Shown here: positions 23,294 to 43,878 of the stretch, one piece after another
Numbering within the stretch: position 1 is the stretch's first letter
How the letters are laid out: the number at the start of each line of letters is the position of its first letter
Source: Atribacterota bacterium
GTDB lineage: Bacteria > Atribacterota > Phoenicimicrobiia > Phoenicimicrobiales > Phoenicimicrobiaceae
Reading direction: 5' to 3'
DNA: 57,820 nucleotides
Assembly (NCBI GenBank): GCA_030605615.1
Contig: JAUWHZ010000027.1
Location: 1 to 57,820 of the forward strand
Position numbers and translations under genes: made by a program
Notes under the pieces: generated by a model
The model's input: the letters and a program-made list of their open reading frames with translations, nothing else
Told to the model about the DNA's origin: nothing
Database searches by the model: none

Positions 23294-26200
23294 ATGACCG
23301 GTATAGCTAATAATCTTTTAAAAAAGCTATTTTTAAAAGAAAAGCATATATATATTTTAAAAATTTTTTGTTTTATTGCTCTATTACTAATTATAATAAA
23401 TTTTTTTCTTACTTCTTCATTTGTCCAGGCCCCTGAACTAAAAATAAGTATATTATACCTTAATAATACTGAACTAACTGATTGGGATTGGTTAAGCAAA
23501 GGTTTAACTGATATGTTGATAGATGACCTTTCCCGGCTTGATTACATCACCTGTCCCTCCCGCCAGGACATAGAAGATTTGTACCTTAAACATAGTTTGC
23601 CTACTGCTCGAACCGAAATGAATAAGTCTCTATTAATCAAAATTAATGAGGATTTAAATGCTGAGATAATATTTTTTGGGAACTATTTTTTTTCTTCACC
23701 TTCCGAGTTGAATTTGAGTCTTAAAAAATATGAAGTAACAACTGGAGAAATTACCACTTTTCGAGATATTAAAGTGGAAAAGACCGATATCTTTAGCTTG
23801 AAAGAAGGGATTGTCTTTTTAATCTTGGAAGAACTTGGCATTGAGGAGCCATCCTCCGAGGATAAGGCTCTAATAAAAGAAATTCCTACTTCTTCTGTTG
23901 AGGCTTTAATTAATTATTATAAATGTATTGATTCCAGGGATAAGGCTATTATAGAATATCAAGGAGCAGATTATCCCAGTAAAAAATTATGGGCTGAGGC
24001 AATAGATTATGGGAAAAAAGCAGTGGCAGTTGACCCAAAATATGCTGAGGCTTTTTATCTTTTAGCTGAAATTTATAATAAGACCCGTTGGACTATCAGA
24101 GAGGTAGAAAGTTTAAATAAATTTATCCAGCTGGTAGAAGATAACCAATTGGGGAGTAAAAAAATTTACGAAAAAGTCGCTCAAGCCTATTTTAGATTGG
24201 GTTATGCCTTTTATTCTAAGAAAGAATTTGAACAGGCGATCGAATATTTTAATTCTTCTATAAAATATAATCCTGATCTATTAGAAGCCCACCTCTATTT
24301 GGTGCGAGTTTATTATGATAGGGGAGAGATGGGTCTCTCTCTTGATGAATGTGAAGAAGTTTTGAGGATAGACCCACAGAATAAAGAGATCTCCTGGTTT
24401 ATTAAAAAGAACGAACAAGCCCAAAAGTATGGTCGGGAAGCTTATGAAAATTACGAAAAGGGTTATCTGGCTTATAAAAAAGGAAATTTTGAAGAAGCCA
24501 TAGATTATTTTAAAATTTCTATTTTAAGCAATCCCGAGTTTAAGGAACCTCATTATTATATAGCTTTAAGTTATTATAATCTTGGAGATTTTGATAATTC
24601 TATTTCTCAATGGGAAGAAGTTATCAGGATTGACCCTTTTAACAATTCAGCAAAACATTTCTTAAATAAATCCTTAGAAGAGAAAAAATACGGACGAGAG
24701 ACTTTAAGGCATTTTAATGCTGGTTATGATTATTATATTAAAGGAGAATACGATAAAGCTATCGTAGAGTTTAATAAGTCTTTAAACTGTAATCCCAAAT
24801 TTGAGAAAGCCCGAAAATATCTTTCCCGTTCTTATTACCAGCTTGATCAGATGGACAAATACCGGGAAGAACGAGAGAAGGCCACTGAATTAAAGACCAG
24901 CGATGAAGAGGAGAGGGCGGAAGAACATTATAAATTGGGATATGAATTTTATTCCTTAGACGACTTCAAAGTGGCAATAGATGAACTTAAAAAAGCCCTG
25001 AATCTAAAAAGCGATTATCCCGGTGCACGCTTTTTATTAGGGGAGTGTTATTTTCAGCAAAAAGAATATCAATTGGCTCAGATTGAGTATGACCGGGTAG
25101 TAACTGATTCAGCAAAAAATGAATATACAGATGATGCCCTTTTGGGTAGTGGCTGGAGTTATTATTTATTAGGAGAATACCCGAAGGCAGCGGAGAGATT
25201 TTCAAAACTAATAGAAGAATTTCCCCAAAGTAATTTAGCCCTCCAGGCTAACTATAAATTGGGCAAATCATATTTTAAAGGAAAAGATTACCCCAAGGTA
25301 ATTAAAGCATATAAAGAGTTTATAGAAAAATATCCTCAGTTTCAAGGACCAGAAATAAAAGAAATATATTTCTTATTGGGCCAGGCCTATCTCTGGTCAG
25401 AGCAATATAAGGAAGCAGAGGAGACCTTTTCCAAGTTATCCTCTCTCTATCCAGAGTTTGAATTAATTAAGGAAGCGGAATACTTTCGAAGTTTAAGCCT
25501 ATTTAAGCAGGAGGAATATCAAGAAGCAATAATTAAACTGGAAGAGTTAGTGGCAGAAGGAGAGGACAAGGCAAAAAATGAGACCTATTATTTACTGGCT
25601 CGTTGTTGGTTAAATTTAGAAGAATATGATAAAGCTATTGAAAAGTTGGAAGATTTAAAACAACTTAAAGTGGAAGATTCTTTATTAGGGAAGGCCATCT
25701 TTGATTTAGGATTAGCTTATTCTCGCCAAGGAGACAAGGAGAGAGCAGTTTTAGAATTTCAAGAATTTATTGAAAAATATCCTCAAAGCGAACTGATTAA
25801 ATCGGCTCATTTTGAGCTGGGGAAAAATTTATATAATTTAAAGAAATATAAATTAGCCCTATCCGAATTAAAGGAAATTTCTACAGCCGAAGCCCTTTAT
25901 TTAAGGGGGAAGGCTGCTGAAGAACTGGGGGATCAAGAAGGAGAAATTGCGGCCTTTGAAGAACTACGGGAGAAATTCCCCCAAAGCGAATACTCTCAAG
26001 AGGCTTATTTTAAGTTAGGTAATTATTATTATAAGCAGAAGAAATATAAAGAGGCGATTGAGGAATTTAAGAAAATTAGTCTAATTTTTCCCCATTCCTC
26101 TTTGATCTCGGAAAGTTATTATTGGATGGGGTGGAGTTATTTTAAATTAACTGAATATCAGAAGGCAAGTGAGTGTTTTAAAAAAGTTGGGGAAGATGAT

Positions 26201-26932
26201 ATAAATTTAAAATTAGCTCAGAGAGCTATATTTATGGCAGCAGAGTCACTGTATAACCTTGAGGATTACCAAAAAGCCCGAGAAGAGTATAGAGCTTTTA
26301 TCGGAAAGTATCCTAAAGCAGAACTTTCTGTAAATGCCCAATATGCTATAGCCTGGACATTTTTGGAAAATAAGGAATATGAGCCCTCAATACAGGAGTT
26401 TAAAAAACTCATAAGCATTTATCCGGAAAGCAAATTTGTGGAAGAAGCTCAATTTAGAATTGGTAAGGGTTATTTTCTTTTAGGAAATAAGGATGAGGCC
26501 AAGACGGAATTAGAGAAATTTATAGATAGCTATGCTAAGAGCAATTTTAGGGCAGAGGTCCTTTATTCATTAAGCCAGATGTATCTAGAAGAAGAAAAAT
26601 GGATGGACAGCATTATCGAGTTAGAAAAATTAGTGAGAGAATATCCAGATACTAAATATTTACCTGATGTCTTATATGGTTTGTGTCTTTCTTATTTTAA
26701 AAAAGATGAATATAATAAGGCTATTGAAGCGGGAGAAAAATATTTAAAAGACTATTTTAAATTACAATTCGGAGATGATATCTTATATATAAAAGCGATT
26801 TGCTGGGAAAAGTTAGAAAATCAGGAAAAGGCAATTACTGATTATCAGATTCTAATTTCTAAATTTCCCCAGAGTCCATATATAGAAAAAGCCAAGGAGA
26901 GGTTGGAAGTTTTACAGAAGGAAAGTGAGTAA
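23294..26932 (+). CDS. Giant TPR-repeat protein (1212 aa) with an N-terminal TM and FlgO/CsgG-like region
   Basis: Many TPR and YbgF/BamD-like repeats (e.g. KAIEEFKKISLIFPHSSLISESYYWMGWSYFKL); N-terminal KISILYLNNTELTDWDWLSKGLTDMLIDDLS. Confidence 0.88.
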   Translation: MTGIANNLLKKLFLKEKHIYILKIFCFIALLLIIINFFLTSSFVQAPELKISILYLNNTELTDWDWLSKGLTDMLIDDLSRLDYITCPSRQDIEDLYLKHSLPTARTEMNKSLLIKINEDLNAEIIFFGNYFFSSPSELNLSLKKYEVTTGEITTFRDIKVEKTDIFSLKEGIVFLILEELGIEEPSSEDKALIKEIPTSSVEALINYYKCIDSRDKAIIEYQGADYPSKKLWAEAIDYGKKAVAVDPKYAEAFYLLAEIYNKTRWTIREVESLNKFIQLVEDNQLGSKKIYEKVAQAYFRLGYAFYSKKEFEQAIEYFNSSIKYNPDLLEAHLYLVRVYYDRGEMGLSLDECEEVLRIDPQNKEISWFIKKNEQAQKYGREAYENYEKGYLAYKKGNFEEAIDYFKISILSNPEFKEPHYYIALSYYNLGDFDNSISQWEEVIRIDPFNNSAKHFLNKSLEEKKYGRETLRHFNAGYDYYIKGEYDKAIVEFNKSLNCNPKFEKARKYLSRSYYQLDQMDKYREEREKATELKTSDEEERAEEHYKLGYEFYSLDDFKVAIDELKKALNLKSDYPGARFLLGECYFQQKEYQLAQIEYDRVVTDSAKNEYTDDALLGSGWSYYLLGEYPKAAERFSKLIEEFPQSNLALQANYKLGKSYFKGKDYPKVIKAYKEFIEKYPQFQGPEIKEIYFLLGQAYLWSEQYKEAEETFSKLSSLYPEFELIKEAEYFRSLSLFKQEEYQEAIIKLEELVAEGEDKAKNETYYLLARCWLNLEEYDKAIEKLEDLKQLKVEDSLLGKAIFDLGLAYSRQGDKERAVLEFQEFIEKYPQSELIKSAHFELGKNLYNLKKYKLALSELKEISTAEALYLRGKAAEELGDQEGEIAAFEELREKFPQSEYSQEAYFKLGNYYYKQKKYKEAIEEFKKISLIFPHSSLISESYYWMGWSYFKLTEYQKASECFKKVGEDDINLKLAQRAIFMAAESLYNLEDYQKAREEYRAFIGKYPKAELSVNAQYAIAWTFLENKEYEPSIQEFKKLISIYPESKFVEEAQFRIGKGYFLLGNKDEAKTELEKFIDSYAKSNFRAEVLYSLSQMYLEEEKWMDSIIELEKLVREYPDTKYLPDVLYGLCLSYFKKDEYNKAIEAGEKYLKDYFKLQFGDDILYIKAICWEKLENQEKAITDYQILISKFPQSPYIEKAKERLEVLQKESE

Positions 26933-26933
26933 G

Positions 26934-27109
26934 TAGTCGTTAGTGAATAGTGAATAGCAAAGAAGAAAGAAAATAAGTGAAGAATAAGATCATATCGAGA
27001 AATGTATATGATGTAGGGGCTTGATTTATCAAGCCCGCAAAACTCGGGTCGGATAAATCCGACCCCTACGCCAGATTCAGAGCTCCATTAGACTATTAAC
27101 TAACGACTA
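26934..27109. repeat. Intergenic block bounded by 17-bp near-perfect inverted repeats enclosing a twin-hairpin element
   Basis: TAGTCGTTAGTGAATAG (26934-26950) and CTATTAACTAACGACTA (27093-27109), 16/17 complementary. Confidence 0.85.
27013..27069. repeat. MITE-like twin-hairpin element with GTAGGGG/CCCCTAC ends
   Basis: GGGCTTGATttATCAAGCCC and GGGTCGGATaaATCCGACCC hairpins between GTAGGGG and CCCCTAC. Confidence 0.9.
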
Positions 27110-27188
27110 AATTGACTGGTAGACTGGAAGATTTTAAAGGGAAATAATTAAAAAGGTTAAAAATAAAAAAAGAGGGGGCAAATATTTA

Positions 27189-27863
27189 ATGTTTGAGGTT
27201 TTTGAAAAAGGCGGATTCTTAATGTATCCCATATTTATATGTTCTTTATTGGCGGTTACTATTTTTTTTGAACGAATGTTCTATTTAAAGAGTGTTAAAA
27301 GCAGGAGTAAAAGATTTGTTGGTCGAGTTAAGAATTTGGTGAAAAAAGGAAGTATTGAGCTGGCTATTTCTGCTTGCCGTAAAAGTCCTACTCCAATATC
27401 TCAGATTATGTTAGATGGTTTAATGAAATATGGTCGAAGTCGGGAAGAGATAAAAGAGGCAATCGAAGATAGTGCGAACCAAGAAATTCCTCTTTTAGAA
27501 AGAAATCTTTCCATCCTTTCTACTATTGGAAATGTTACTCCCTTATTAGGACTTTTAGGAACAGTATTTGGTATGATTAAGGCATTTAATGTAATAGCTG
27601 TTATGGGAGTAGGCAAACCAGAGGCACTGGCAGAAGGTATTTCAATGGCATTGCTTACTACTGCCTTTGGATTATCAGTGGCTATACCTACCATTGTAAT
27701 TTACAATTATTTAGCTCATCGAGTAGATAAATTAATAAAAGAGATGGAAATAAGTTGTGTAGATCTTTTAGAACTTTTAACTAACCATGATATGAGACAA
27801 GAAACAAGTCAGAATTTTGATCGGGAAGGTGAAGTAGCGTATGAAGTTTCCTCATCCGAATAA
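27189..27863 (+). CDS. MotA/TolQ/ExbB proton channel family protein
   Basis: ERNLSILSTIGNVTPLLGLLGTVFGMIKAFN, EGISMALLTTAFGLSVAIPTIVIYNYL. Confidence 0.93.
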   Translation: MFEVFEKGGFLMYPIFICSLLAVTIFFERMFYLKSVKSRSKRFVGRVKNLVKKGSIELAISACRKSPTPISQIMLDGLMKYGRSREEIKEAIEDSANQEIPLLERNLSILSTIGNVTPLLGLLGTVFGMIKAFNVIAVMGVGKPEALAEGISMALLTTAFGLSVAIPTIVIYNYLAHRVDKLIKEMEISCVDLLELLTNHDMRQETSQNFDREGEVAYEVSSSE

Positions 27864-28257
27864 AAAGAGTGCTAGTTTTAATTTGACTCCTTTAATAGAT
27901 GTAGTCTTTCTTTTATTGATATTTTTTATGTTGACTACTACATTTATAAATTTAGAAAGCAGAATAAAGGTTAATTTACCCACTGGTGATTTTGCTGCTG
28001 CCGAGCCGTCTGAAAATATTACCCTAACTATTACTGAAAATAACACGATTTACTTTAATGGAAAATTGATAGATCCTTTAAAGATTACTGAAAATGTGGC
28101 TACAGAATTAGAAAATGATCCGGAAAAATTGGTGATATTAGAGGCTGATAAAAATGTTCTTCATGGTAAGGTAATCAGGGTAATGGATTTAATTAAAAAA
28201 GGTGGAGCAGATAGGATTGCTATTGCCACCAAGCCAACCGAAATAAGTAGTGAGTAA
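27841..28257 (+). CDS. Biopolymer transport protein ExbD/TolR family
   Basis: FNLTPLIDVVFLLLIFFMLTTTFI, EADKNVLHGKVIRVMDLIKKGGADRIAIAT. Confidence 0.93.
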   Translation: MKFPHPNKKSASFNLTPLIDVVFLLLIFFMLTTTFINLESRIKVNLPTGDFAAAEPSENITLTITENNTIYFNGKLIDPLKITENVATELENDPEKLVILEADKNVLHGKVIRVMDLIKKGGADRIAIATKPTEISSE

Positions 28258-28470
28258 TTCGTATCTCGTATCTCGTAAGGAAAACAGGAGTCAGAAGCCT
28301 AATTCGTATCTCGTGAATCGTATCTCGTATTCTAACGGATAGCGTTTAGCGTATAGGATAATTAGTATATAGTGAATAGTATTTAGTCGTTAGTAGGACA
28401 GGCGTCTCGCCTGTCTATCAGTCAATCAACGACTATTCCTTAACGACTAATTTAATTGGTAAATTAATAA
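28258..28470. repeat. Intergenic word mosaic with nested palindrome (TTAGTCGTTA ... GACAGGCGTCTCGCCTGTC ... TAACGACTAA)
   Basis: Repeated CGTATCTCGTATCTCG, GGATAGCGTTTAGCGTATAGG; TTAGTCGTTA 28383-28392 with TAACGACTAA 28441-28450 around palindrome 28397-28415. Confidence 0.85.
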
Positions 28471-28492
28471 TATGAGGTGCTTATAAAAATAT

Positions 28493-29983
28493 ATGCCCAG
28501 ATATAGTTATAGAATAAAACGCTTAAAACAGAGTAAAAAAAGTTTTTTAGGAAGGTCATTTCTAATTTCTATTATAGTTAATGTTATATTATTGTATGCT
28601 TTTGGAAATATGATTGCCTTTGATTTTAAGAAACCTTTTCCAGAAGAAGAGCTGACCCTGGTCACTCTGGTGGAACTTCCTGCCCCCAAAAAGCCAGAAA
28701 CTAAAAAACCAGAAATTACTGAGAAAAAACCTGTTGCTCAATTACAAGTTAAACCAAAGCTCGAGCCAGTTTCACCAGAGCCACCTAAATTAAAGGAAGA
28801 GGTAACTGAGACTAAGGTAATAGAGAAAGAAGAATTAACCGAAGGCACACCCAAAGTAGAAGTTAAGACTCCACAGATTGAGACCGAACCCGAATTGATA
28901 GCACCTTCTCCACAAGCAAAGGAGTCTTTAGGAGAGGACATAAGTATTTCTACTGAATATTTTAAGCAGGCCATAGCCAGTAGAAAAGAGGTAAAGGGGG
29001 AGATCTTCGAGCCAGGAGAGTCACAGCTTAAGGTTAATTTAGGCGAAAAAGAGGAAGAAAATATTGAAGCGACCTATGGTACAATAGTTAGTCCGGGAGA
29101 AATTAGTACCCTTCCCGAAGTAAAGGAAAAAGAATCACCCTTCGGGAGTAGACCCCTTTCTATTATGATAGAAAATTCAGAGGGAGCCCGACCCCAGACT
29201 GGTTTAGATAAGGCCAGTATTGTCTACGAAGTTTTAGCAGAAGGTGGAATAACTAGATTTTTAGCTATTTATTATGATAAAGATGCAGAAGAAGTTGGAC
29301 CAGTAAGGAGTGCCCGTCCTTATTTTGTTAGTAAGTCTTTAGAACACCAGGCAATTTATGTCCATATAGGAGGAAGTGAAGAAGCTTATAATTTCATAAA
29401 GACAGAAAAAATTGATGATATAAATGAATTTGTAGATTTTCAACCCTTTTGGCGAACTAAAGACCGAAAACCACCACATAATTTATATACCTCAACTATT
29501 AAGCTAAGAAAAGAAGCTAACAAATTAGGTTATATAGAAATGATAAAGAAGGAAGATTATCAATTTGAAACTGATAGAAATGAAAAATTAACTGGCAGAC
29601 AAGCCAATACTATAGTAATTCCTTATAACGATATCTATACAGTTAGCTATGAATATCAGCCTGAATCAATGAAATATCTAAGATTTTTAAATGGTAAGCC
29701 CCATATAGATGCTAAGACCAAAAAACAATTGTCAATAGATAATATTGTTGTCCAATTTGCCAAAACCAAAGTCATTGATGAAGAGGGAAGATTAGCAATG
29801 GATTTTATTGGTGAGGGAAGAGGTTTAATATTCTTTAAAGGAGATTCTGAAGAAATTACCTGGAAAAAGCAGGACTTAAGGGCAAGGACAGTATTTTTTA
29901 ATAAAGAGGGAGACCGAATAGCTTTCACGCCAGGGAGCATTTGGATCCAAATTGTCTTCTCAGATTTAACGGTAGAATATTAA
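28493..29983 (+). CDS. TonB/TolA-like N-terminal anchor and Pro-rich linker fused to a C-terminal DUF3048 (YerB-like) domain
   Basis: Single TM SFLISIIVNVILLYAF then LVTLVELPAPKKPETKKPEITEKKP; C-terminus PLSIMIENSEGARPQTGLDKASIVYEVLAEGGITRFLAIYYDKDAEEVGPVRSARPYFV...KPPHNLYTS. Confidence 0.88.
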   Translation: MPRYSYRIKRLKQSKKSFLGRSFLISIIVNVILLYAFGNMIAFDFKKPFPEEELTLVTLVELPAPKKPETKKPEITEKKPVAQLQVKPKLEPVSPEPPKLKEEVTETKVIEKEELTEGTPKVEVKTPQIETEPELIAPSPQAKESLGEDISISTEYFKQAIASRKEVKGEIFEPGESQLKVNLGEKEEENIEATYGTIVSPGEISTLPEVKEKESPFGSRPLSIMIENSEGARPQTGLDKASIVYEVLAEGGITRFLAIYYDKDAEEVGPVRSARPYFVSKSLEHQAIYVHIGGSEEAYNFIKTEKIDDINEFVDFQPFWRTKDRKPPHNLYTSTIKLRKEANKLGYIEMIKKEDYQFETDRNEKLTGRQANTIVIPYNDIYTVSYEYQPESMKYLRFLNGKPHIDAKTKKQLSIDNIVVQFAKTKVIDEEGRLAMDFIGEGRGLIFFKGDSEEITWKKQDLRARTVFFNKEGDRIAFTPGSIWIQIVFSDLTVEY

Positions 29984-36091: not shown

Positions 36092-37909
36092 ATGAAGACA
36101 AGATTAAATATTAGTTTATTAATAAAATTTATATTAATTTTATTAATTTTATTTAGCTTAAGTGTAAGCGTCACGTTTTCTAATGATTTGTTTATGTCAA
36201 CTTCTGAGATAAAGCCAGGGATGAGAGGGATAGGAAAGACAGTTTTTCATGGCACTGAAATAGAGACTTTTCAGGTGGATATTATAGATATAATCAAAGG
36301 AGAAGGCGAAATTGATAATTTTATTCTTGCCCATTTAAGTGGAGAGAGAATTGAAGCAAGTGGTGGTATCTCGGAGGGGATGAGTGGCAGCCCGGTCTAT
36401 ATAGATGGTAGATTAATTGGAGCTATATCTTATGCCTGGGAAATGAGTGAACATAACCTCTGTCTTATAACACCTATCCAGGAGATGTTAAAAATATTTA
36501 ATCTTCCGATTAATTATGACCATTCCTTATTCCAAGAATATCAGATTAATAAATCTTTGTGTCTTGCCGGGAAGGAAATTAACAAGATAATTGTAAAAGA
36601 TAGTGTTGAAGATAATAATTTTTACAAAAAAATAAATCAGGAAGAAATTGTTTTTTATCCAGTAACCTCATCAGTTACTATAAGCGGTCTGAAAGGTAGA
36701 TCCTTTGACCGGTTAAGCAATTCATTGAAAAAATTTAATCTGAAACCAGTTCAGGGTGTTTACGGCTTAGAGAAAGTAGACTTTCAGGATGTAGGAGAAA
36801 AACCTTCTCGTAAAGTAGAAGCTGGTTCTGCAATAGGAATACAGTTAACTCGAGGAGATGTCAATATTACTTCTATTGGAACAGTAACTTACCGAGAGGG
36901 AAATAAAATTTTAGCTCTAGGTCATCCTTTTTTAAAGAAGGGAGAGGTTTCTTTTCTTCTTTCTACGGTATATATTTATCATAGTATGCCCAACATAGTT
37001 ATGCCTTTTAAATTAGGTTCTCCTTTATACTTAGTAGGAAAAATTGTTCAGGATAGAGAGGCAGGAATACAGGGGATACTTAATTCCTACCCCCGCGTAA
37101 TTCCTCTTATAATAAATGTAGAAAATATCGATTCGGGATCATTTTATCAAATGGGAGTCCAATTGATAGATGATTATGACTTATTAGAGCCCTTAGTATC
37201 AAATATAACTGTGCAAGCAATAGATAATGCTCTGGATAGAATTGGGGTAGGTTCTGCCCAGGTAGTTATAGATATTAAGGGTGTAAAAGAGGGACAAGAA
37301 GTTTGTAGAAAAAATATGTATTATAGTTCAAACGATATAGCTATTCAGGTTATTACCGAGATACCCGAAATTATCGATTTAATTATTAATAATTATTTTG
37401 AGGCCGTGAGTTTGGCCCAGATAAATATCGATATTAGAATAGATAATAAAAGGAAAATTGGTAAGATAGAAGAGGTGACCTTGGAAGAATCATCTCTAAA
37501 ACCAGGAGATAGTCTAATAGCACAGATTAAGATTAGACCTTTTCGGGGAGATTTAATCGAAAAGACATTGACTATTCAACTTCCTTCTCATGTTTCTTCA
37601 GGCGAGGCTTTATTAATGGTTAGTGGAGGAGGAGATTTAAATAATCAACAAGAAGAGCTTGTTAATGGCGGTGAAAAAGTTTATAAAAATTTAGAAGAAA
37701 TATTTAAAGATATTACTGATAGGCCGAGGGGTAATCAAATTATTGGAGAAGTAATAATTTATTCGGATGAATTTACCTCTGAGGAAGAGACTGGTGAAGA
37801 TGATCTAAAGGAAAATGAAGAAAAAAAGGATTTACTGATTTCTAAGATTGAAACCGATATGGTTATAGAAGGATATCTGGAAGTATCTTTTACAATATTA
37901 GAAGATTAG
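36092..37909 (+). CDS. SpoIVB-type peptidase S55 domain protein
   Basis: STSEIKPGMRGIGKTVFHGTEIETFQVDIIDI...GGISEGMSGSPVYIDGRLIGAISYAW; signal peptide. Confidence 0.88.
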   Translation: MKTRLNISLLIKFILILLILFSLSVSVTFSNDLFMSTSEIKPGMRGIGKTVFHGTEIETFQVDIIDIIKGEGEIDNFILAHLSGERIEASGGISEGMSGSPVYIDGRLIGAISYAWEMSEHNLCLITPIQEMLKIFNLPINYDHSLFQEYQINKSLCLAGKEINKIIVKDSVEDNNFYKKINQEEIVFYPVTSSVTISGLKGRSFDRLSNSLKKFNLKPVQGVYGLEKVDFQDVGEKPSRKVEAGSAIGIQLTRGDVNITSIGTVTYREGNKILALGHPFLKKGEVSFLLSTVYIYHSMPNIVMPFKLGSPLYLVGKIVQDREAGIQGILNSYPRVIPLIINVENIDSGSFYQMGVQLIDDYDLLEPLVSNITVQAIDNALDRIGVGSAQVVIDIKGVKEGQEVCRKNMYYSSNDIAIQVITEIPEIIDLIINNYFEAVSLAQINIDIRIDNKRKIGKIEEVTLEESSLKPGDSLIAQIKIRPFRGDLIEKTLTIQLPSHVSSGEALLMVSGGGDLNNQQEELVNGGEKVYKNLEEIFKDITDRPRGNQIIGEVIIYSDEFTSEEETGEDDLKENEEKKDLLISKIETDMVIEGYLEVSFTILED

Positions 37910-42111: not shown

Positions 42112-42691
42112 ATGAGAATGGATATTGATTTAATAAAGGTAAGATTAAAAGAGATAATAAGTGAAGAGAGATTCGTACACTCGGTTAATGTTTCCCGGGT
42201 AGCTCGGGAGTTAGCTTTAAGATATGATTATAATGCGGATAATGCCGAAATAGCCGGGCTATTACATGATTGTGCCAAAGATTTAAATTATAAGACTTTG
42301 GAAAAAATGATTTTAGAATATAATATACAGACCGATGAAATTATTCAAAAAATCCCTAAACTATTACATCCTTTGGTAGGGGCAGCTATAGCGGAAAAGG
42401 AATTTAACATTCAAGACCCTGCTATTTTAAAAGCAATAAAAGCACACAGTGCCGGTGCAGCTCAGATGTCCCTTTTAGATAAGATAATTTATCTAAGTGA
42501 TAAGATTGAACCTTTTGAGGAATAATGAAGGGGTAGAGGAAGTAAGAAAAATGGTATGGAAAGATTTAAATAGAGCTGTATTAATGGTTCTGGATAAAGG
42601 ACTAATCTATCTAATCAGTAAAGGTTCATTAATTCATCCAATTTCTATTGAGGCTAGAAATAACATTTTAAGCAAGGTGGTTTTTGCTTAA
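42112..42691 (+). pseudogene. yqeK: HD-domain YqeK-family hydrolase split by a 1-nt frameshift near 42517
   Basis: LLHDCAKDL...YLSDKIEPF | RNNEGVEEVRKMVWKDLNRAVLMVLDKGLIYLISKGSLIHPISIEARN; conserved IEPxRxxxGVEEVR motif spans two frames. Confidence 0.85.
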
Positions 42692-43878
42692 TGTATGAAA
42701 ATAATTTATTAGAAGAGAAGACAGGAAGGAATAATGGAAGAAGATTAAAAAGGAAAAAAAATAAAAAAATAATCCTGATCATATCTTCTATTCTACTGTT
42801 ATCTATTCTAATTATATTCTTAAAATATTTAGGAATATTTCCTTTCAGTTCTAGTATATTGTCTTATAATCGAATAAATGTATTAATTGTGGGTTGTGAT
42901 GAAATTGAAAACCACGGACGTGCTGATACTATAGTGTTTTTAAGCATATCCCCTAAAACTAAAGATGCCCTCATATTATCTATCCCTCGGGATACCCGGG
43001 TTGAAATTCCGGGAAGAGGAATGGACAAGATAAATCATGCTTATGCCTTTGGAGGGGAAAAATTAATAAGTAAAACAGTCAGTTCATTTTTAGATATACC
43101 TCTTCATTTTTATGCTGTAATGGATTTTAAAGGATTTGTCAGTATAATTGATGAATTAGGTGGAGTAGAGATTGATATAGAAAAGGAGATGCATTATGTA
43201 GATAAAGCAGGTGGGGTGGATATAAACCTTTATCCAGGAAAGCAAATATTAAATGGTGAAAAAGCTTTACAATATATTAGATTCAGACATGATAGATTAG
43301 GTGATTTGGGCAGGATAAAGAGACAACAAAAATTAGCTATGGCTCTAATTAACAAGATGATGAAATTTGATTCTATTATAAAAATTCCTCAGCTGTTAGA
43401 AGGGATAAAGGGGTATATAGAGACTAATATAAAGGTTCAAGATGTAATCGCTATAGCTAATTTGTTTAAAAATGTAAATCGAGAGAAGTTTAAGCTTGAA
43501 ACCGTTCAGAGTAAGCCAGTTTATATTGAGGGGGTAAGTTATTTAGAACCGGATGTGGAAGAAGTGCAGCAAAGGGTTAAGTCACTAATTTATGGTAAAA
43601 ATAGTGGGGTAAAAGTAGAAGTTTTAAATGGGAATGCTATGTCGGGTATTGCTCATAGAATAGCCAAAGATTTAGAGTTACAGGGATTTGAGATAGTAAA
43701 TATTGATAATGCAGATAATTTTAATTATGAAAAAACTAAAATTATTATTTACTCAGATAAGATAAATTTAGATAATGAATTTAAACAGTTATTTAAAGAT
43801 TTTGAAATTGTTAAAGGATATCAAACACAGGATGGCCCAGATTTGGTAATAATATTAGGGAAAGATATGATTAATTAG
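42691..43878 (+). CDS. LytR-CpsA-Psr (LCP) family protein with C-terminal LytR_C domain
   Basis: NVLIVGCDEIENHGRADTIVFLSISPKTKDALILSIPRDTRVEIPGRGMDKINHAYAFGG, ALQYIRFRHDRLGDLGRIKRQQ. Confidence 0.93.
   Translation: MYENNLLEEKTGRNNGRRLKRKKNKKIILIISSILLLSILIIFLKYLGIFPFSSSILSYNRINVLIVGCDEIENHGRADTIVFLSISPKTKDALILSIPRDTRVEIPGRGMDKINHAYAFGGEKLISKTVSSFLDIPLHFYAVMDFKGFVSIIDELGGVEIDIEKEMHYVDKAGGVDINLYPGKQILNGEKALQYIRFRHDRLGDLGRIKRQQKLAMALINKMMKFDSIIKIPQLLEGIKGYIETNIKVQDVIAIANLFKNVNREKFKLETVQSKPVYIEGVSYLEPDVEEVQQRVKSLIYGKNSGVKVEVLNGNAMSGIAHRIAKDLELQGFEIVNIDNADNFNYEKTKIIIYSDKINLDNEFKQLFKDFEIVKGYQTQDGPDLVIILGKDMIN

Follow-up and report, generated by a model that had tools for sequence, protein, structure and literature searches.

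The forward-strand open reading frame at positions 28493-29983 of the window (the whole 57,820-nucleotide stretch of Atribacterota DNA analyzed here, one contig of a MAG that is 65.7% complete) encodes a 496-residue protein in which a TonB/TolA-like N-terminus carries an entire DUF3048 domain. It is the last of four genes (23294-29983), the others encoding a TPR protein, an ExbB/TolQ-type protein and an ExbD/TolR-type protein, all on the forward strand. The best reading of this fusion is as a proposed force transducer that works like TolA or TonB and belongs to neither family. We regard its coupling to the adjoining motor as highly probable, although complex formation and work dependent on the proton motive force (PMF) are inferred, with no experiment or model of the complex behind them.

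Architecture of the fusion and its DUF3048 domain

The fusion starts with a positively charged, basic segment, followed by a transmembrane (TM) helix at residues 21-41 (28553-28615), which is the single helix of TM length in the predicted model and contains Ser26 and Asn30. Beyond a short strand discussed in the next section lies a Pro/Lys/Glu-rich linker (residues 64-208; 28682-29116) that is predicted to be periplasmic and, at residues 89-208, disordered (pLDDT <50); the C-terminal half of the protein is modeled confidently. There we found DUF3048_N (PF11258, E=2.3e-49; residues 213-347, 29129-29533) and DUF3048_C (PF17479, E=1.2e-28; residues 376-485, 29618-29947), and the Pfam profile search gave no match to a TonB_C or TolA domain in the fusion. 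The sole PDB match by phmmer is Bacillus subtilis YerB (2psb, E=4.1e-45), which is also the single significant match when the fold of the predicted model is searched against the PDB, so that this search offers no better-understood relative of DUF3048 than YerB.

Identity between the DUF3048 domain of the fusion and the YerB/DUF3048 family is 35-37%, and 33 positions, many of them polar or charged, show little or no variation when the fusions are compared with nine DUF3048 proteins from outside the Atribacterota, YerB included. Among the invariant residues are N228, Q235, E246, E250, R255, R272, S273, R275, H291, R321 and N330, a set shared by fusion, free and Bacillota members. Because these family-wide positions are kept, the domain in the fusion is not degenerate, and with both DUF3048_N and DUF3048_C present its membership of the family is established. 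The invariant polar residues could also mean that DUF3048 acts on peptidoglycan or a cell-wall polymer, as enzyme or regulator, with motor tension as its switch, and the resemblance of the neighboring TPR protein's fold to the PBP1B activator LpoB points the same way. No catalytic fold is recognized in DUF3048, however, and the open-access literature yielded no published activity for the family, whose function the single paper there to name DUF3048 calls unassigned; we consider this explanation unlikely.

Outside the Atribacterota, DUF3048 was found in 9 of about 336 sampled genomes, mostly as lipoproteins or proteins with signal peptides. No ExbBD genes were found beside DUF3048 in these nine genomes, for which larger flanks were inspected, nor was any ExbB or ExbD found within the 1.5-kb flanks of 59 further DUF3048 loci from two DUF3048-rich phyla, where motors lying farther away would have been missed. 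Within this sample, motor linkage of DUF3048 is specific to the Atribacterota. The fusion thus shares with YerB (PF11258+PF17479) the entire domain and its invariant residues, but YerB-type proteins occur free, as lipoproteins or in secreted form, and without an adjoining ExbBD, whereas the domain in the fusion is tethered to a putative motor-coupling N-terminus. In a tree of the DUF3048 domain the fusion clade is not cleanly resolved and one member (L045) drifts; given the long branches, a single origin of the fusion is not proved.

Several other DUF3048 proteins came to light. Atribacterota families f1 and f2 have a second, short DUF3048 protein (about 311-340 residues), free-standing and with a signal or anchor helix (G000:C16:1938-2309, L002/L070; also L067, L068, L069 and L071). 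The L069 gene adjoins a pair of genes for CBS/hemolysin-type membrane proteins, near cdd, a recO-like gene and glyQS, and in L100, from another DUF3048-rich phylum, the DUF3048 gene comes after such a pair and ahead of era; this neighborhood may be where the family originally resided. The phylum of G167 (about 40 genomes; L145-L174) has DUF3048 proteins of about 450-740 residues in 31/40; many of them have an extended N-terminal region and a signal peptide, and their genes mostly adjoin one for an era-like GTPase.

Motor genes and motor-coupling motifs

The gene at 27189-27863 encodes a 224-residue ExbB/TolQ-type motor subunit (PF01618, E=6.9e-36), overlapped by the gene at 27841-28257 for a 138-residue ExbD/TolR-type subunit (PF02472, E=2.4e-31). 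Conserved features of the ExbB include the Ser of TM1, the pore Thr pair (in the GT(V/W) and TT motifs) and the Pro of TM3, and the ExbD keeps the TM Asp (TPLIDV). With the MotA_ExbB and ExbD domains, the pore Thr residues and the proton-binding Asp all in place, the pair meets the criteria for an ExbB/ExbD motor. The position equivalent to Trp38 of ExbB holds a hydrophobic residue in fusion-linked ExbBs, as it also does in TonB-type ExbBs within the Atribacterota. In two loci, L048 (G029:C62) and L055 (G034:C14), an extra ExbD with an identical protein sequence is encoded ahead of the TPR gene, and in L048 the same is true of ExbB; this suggests either that TPR-ExbB-ExbD was recently duplicated in tandem or that the assembly contains a repeat.

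In TonB and TolA, a Ser-x3-His pair in the TM helix touches a Ser and a Trp in TM1 of ExbB or TolQ, the partners in the case of TonB being Ser34 and Trp38 of ExbB (PMC12215075). The TM helix of the fusion has Ser26 and Asn30 at exactly the spacing of TonB Ser16 and His20. Ser26 is present in all 35 aligned fusions; at position 30, 34 of them have Asn and the remaining one (L045, of the divergent family f3) has His. The TonB proteins that we read from Atribacterota (L110-L113 and L115) have Ser-x3-His, and the Asn is therefore a mark of the fusion system and not of the phylum. To judge by the title of Swayne & Postle 2011, as cited in PMC8928145, mutagenesis has indicated that Asn can replace His20 of TonB. 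The TM-pair criterion for a force transducer is thus met at the level of sequence, with Asn standing in for His.

A second motif follows the helix. In both TonB and TolA a strand called the D-box or motor box is captured by the ExbD dimer (PMC10907165; PMC12204202). The fusion has a similar strand, TLVTLVELP (residues 55-63; 28655-28681), 25 residues past Asn30, and all 35 fusions have one 24-27 residues past residue 30, with the modal spacing of 25 in 23 of them. The spacing in E. coli TonB is also 25, from His20 to Ile45, when the D-box peptide is counted as residues 43-54 (PMC10907165). Our search pattern was hydrophobic-x-hydrophobic-polar-hydrophobic-hydrophobic-Glu-(V/I/L)-Pro, with Thr, which the window protein has there, permitted at position 1, and it matched 25 of 7000 shuffled linkers by chance. 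One of the fusions (L039) has IEVTMVELP, to be set against ISVTMVTP in E. coli TonB. By these comparisons the fusions meet the motor-box criterion as well, as a putative ExbD-binding strand.

The initial annotation, made from the sequence alone, had described an N-terminal TM helix, a Pro/Lys/Glu linker and a complete DUF3048 in place of TonB_C or TolA_C, directly behind ExbB and ExbD genes; the profile searches and the predicted model bear out each of these, including the HMM check proposed for DUF3048. The conservation of a TonB-type SHLS/H residue in the helix, which it proposed to test, holds for the Ser, but Asn replaces His in 34/35 fusions and the second Ser of SHLS (residue 41) is not conserved. 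A helix lacking TonB/TolA-type pairing features in homologs, which was to have refuted the idea, was not what we saw, since S-x3-N/H and the motor box occur in 35/35.

We considered the possibility that the fusion is merely a membrane-anchored DUF3048 protein (a tether, a wall binder or an enzyme) and that the motor has another client, perhaps only the TPR protein. Free DUF3048 proteins, after all, are anchored by a lipid or signal sequence and work without an adjoining ExbBD, and the polar residues that never vary hint at a ligand or active site, neither of which need be driven. For a simple anchor, however, the S-x3-N/H pair and the ExbD-binding-type strand would be superfluous, yet they are invariant at TonB spacing, and in most genomes our searches turned up no alternative TonB/TolA-like partner for the sole ExbBD. 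A mere anchor therefore seems improbable to us.

Gene order and comparison with the vWA, Ton and Tol-Pal systems

DUF3048 matches occur in 46 of 50 Atribacterota genomes, and in 45 they are of the fusion type; the exception, G013, has DUF3048 only as the short paralogue. In 39 of the 45 fusion loci the gene immediately before the fusion, in the same orientation, encodes ExbD; in the other six the contig ends no more than about 0.5 kb from where the fusion begins, so that the linkage holds in 39/39 loci that can be assessed. We had been led to look for ExbBD-adjacent DUF3048 proteins in related genomes, with absence of the linkage as a ground for rejection; it proved instead to be phylum-wide. 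The complete order TPR-ExbB-ExbD-fusion is seen in 27 loci, whose fusions are about 35-81% identical to the window protein, and in every one of the seven families but f3, where the contigs are broken. In families f4-f7 the gene past the fusion is usually lgt, followed by xerD and a purine nucleoside phosphorylase gene, and in L046 there is a 4-bp overlap at both the exbD/fusion and fusion/lgt junctions, the kind of spacing that an operon would show. Each of the closed genomes G025 and G032 has exactly one ExbD gene, adjoining the fusion. An artifact of assembly or of a single MAG can be ruled out, since the fusion recurs in 45 genomes, including two that are single contigs. This recurrence of architecture and gene order across the Atribacterota places the arrangement far from chance.

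Elsewhere in the window, TTAGTCGTTAGT has 8 matches in intergenic gaps against 0.19 expected and CGTATCTCGTA has 4 against 0 expected, the sites of the two being at 26933, 27099, 28260-28329, 28383, 35960, 43900, 44048 and 57270. Although the phylum is diderm, 42691-43878 encodes a LytR-CpsA-Psr family protein with LytR_C, from a group of wall-polymer ligases characteristic of Gram-positive walls. Part of a SpoIVB-type peptidase S55 domain (E=2.3e-11) is recognizable in the 605-residue product of the gene at 36092-37909. RT761, an Atribacterota isolate in culture, has been described as non-spore-forming, and the lineage has an unusual multilayered cell envelope (PMC7736352).

The closest precedent is that of the vWA proteins, TolA/TonB-type transducers whose C-terminal domain is non-homologous (Williams-Jones et al. 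2025, PMC12204202). They share with the fusion a TolA/TonB-like TM helix and linker, and those of the PVC group also share the gene order TPR-tolQ-tolR-transducer (PMC12204202). The fusion, in contrast, ends in DUF3048 with the YerB fold and has no vWA fold, is accompanied by a single ExbD and is found in the Atribacterota; no DUF is named in the main text of PMC12204202. Given the shared gene order, the motor might conceivably power secretion, motility or an output of the gliding type and not envelope maintenance. We think this unlikely, as the fusion is near-universal, even in lineages with separate flagellar MotAB genes, its neighbors lgt, xerD and the purine nucleoside phosphorylase gene are housekeeping genes, and no secretin or adhesin is found in the block.

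The likeness to Ton is considerable: an ExbB/ExbD motor, an N-in TM helix with S-x3-H/N, a motor box at 25 residues and a Pro-rich linker. The fusion differs from it in lacking TonB_C, without which it does not qualify as a TonB (PF03544), in having Asn for His, in having a TPR gene in its block and in occurring mostly in receptor-free genomes. TonB_C is found in 10/50 Atribacterota genomes (none in the window's own assembly, which is incomplete) and TBDT plug domains in 13/50; neither was found in closed G025 or G032. The nine genomes with both TonB_C and the fusion have a second ExbD, which adjoins TonB_C. In most Atribacterota, then, there is a single ExbBD, for which no candidate transducer other than the fusion was found, and on the distribution of TonB_C and plug domains we reject a TonB import role for it. 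That the fusion is a divergent TonB for import through receptors, in which DUF3048 takes over receptor binding from TonB_C, would fit its TM pair, motor box, linker and ExbBD neighbors, but is very improbable when plugs are so much rarer than the fusion, genuine TonB_C proteins have their own ExbBD and adjoin a receptor gene, and two closed genomes have the fusion without a receptor. In the TonB loci read, a TonB-dependent receptor gene is followed by TonB, ExbB and ExbD. This cluster occurs alongside the DUF3048 system in about a fifth of the Atribacterota (for example L110-L113 and L115, in G010, G019, G014, G020 and G035).

The Atribacterota are diderm, their outer membrane being supported by Omp85 in 48/50 genomes. 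TolB_N, however, was found in none of the 50 at the family cut-off, at which an E. coli control was detected. OmpA domains occur in 28/50, but the sole one in closed G025 is MotB in a flagellar cluster, the G034 match is a flagellar MotB in the same context, and closed G032 has none; some OmpA proteins in families f1 and f2 were not read. We found no Pal gene in G025 or G032. A true Tol-Pal system is rejected on the TolB_N result and the identification of the G025 and G034 matches as MotB, in agreement with the restriction of Pal to the Gracilicutes (PMC10628300). Nor is the fusion a TolA, having no Pfam TolA or TonB_C domain and a C-terminal half whose model matches only YerB. Its linker is Pro-rich, not helical as in TolA.

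What does recall Tol is the upstream gene (23294-26932), which encodes a predicted periplasmic protein of 1,212 residues with TIGR02795 and TPR matches. Its relatives, also of about 1,200 residues, are conserved ahead of ExbB-ExbD-fusion, and the gene is part of the same block. An N-terminal signal or anchor helix is followed by a TolB-N/LpoB/CsgG-type domain (residues ~48-180) and then by repeats that score as YbgF/CpoB type. Pfam matches to the N-domain are weak (CsgG best at E=1.4e-4, TolB_N at 0.01), while its model (mean pLDDT 88) matches the folds of LpoB, the CadC periplasmic domain, TolB and CsgG. The TolA of E. coli binds both CpoB and the TolB N-terminus, and CpoB connects to PBP1B-LpoB (PMC8928145); with its TolB-N/LpoB-like domain and CpoB-type TPRs, the Atribacterota protein looks like TolA's periplasmic partners combined in a single chain. 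For the same reason "Tol-like", the term used in the initial annotation, is a reasonable analogy for the motor-and-transducer design and its partner, though not a literal description, as TolB and Pal were not found where tested. Because this fold class is common (also CadC, CsgG and PelC), the partner inference is only a moderate one, and whether the likeliest direct client of the fusion is indeed the TPR protein we put at about even.

A proposed PMF-driven machine in the Atribacterota envelope

We propose that the four genes may encode a PMF-driven, trans-periplasmic machine built like Ton and Tol except in its output head. The inner-membrane motor would consist of ExbB and ExbD. The TM helix of the fusion would dock on ExbB, with Ser26 and Asn30 standing in for Ser16 and His20 of TonB, and its motor-box strand would be captured by the ExbD dimer. 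Motor cycles would then pass through the roughly 145-residue linker to DUF3048, acting deep in the periplasm at the position of the TonB or TolA C-terminal domain, most likely on the TPR neighbor. If that neighbor is the client, the machine would link inner-membrane energy to upkeep of the outer membrane or cell wall, as Tol does. The initial annotation had likewise suggested that the PMF may drive a periplasmic DUF3048 effector, and the linkage and coupling motifs support this, but that force arrives at DUF3048 and that the domain, which has no known ligand, acts on a periplasmic or outer-membrane client are still inferences, as are docking, the TPR client and the envelope role. Taken as a whole, from motor to upkeep, the model is in our view probable; Tol-like envelope maintenance as its biological output is an inference that we hold only tentatively.

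Transducers of the TolA/TonB type with another C-terminal domain are already known from the vWA proteins (2025); new here are the DUF3048 output domain, the natural Asn form of the motor-binding pair and the phylum-wide occurrence of the system. To the known outputs of Ton/Tol-type motors (the TonB/TolA C-terminal domain and vWA) would be added an unrelated domain, and the orphan DUF3048/YerB family gains its first strong functional clue. A natural S-x3-Asn transducer also bears on whether the His of TonB and TolA is a proton carrier or a structural contact. For a diderm phylum apparently without Tol-Pal, the block is a candidate energized envelope system. It may be, and we find the case for and against evenly balanced, that the Atribacterota envelope is run by a separate PMF machine that is neither Ton nor Tol-Pal, in which ExbBD would pull DUF3048, a Bacillota-type domain grafted onto a motor-coupling N-terminus with a natural Asn-for-His replacement, against a TolB-N/CpoB-like TPR partner.
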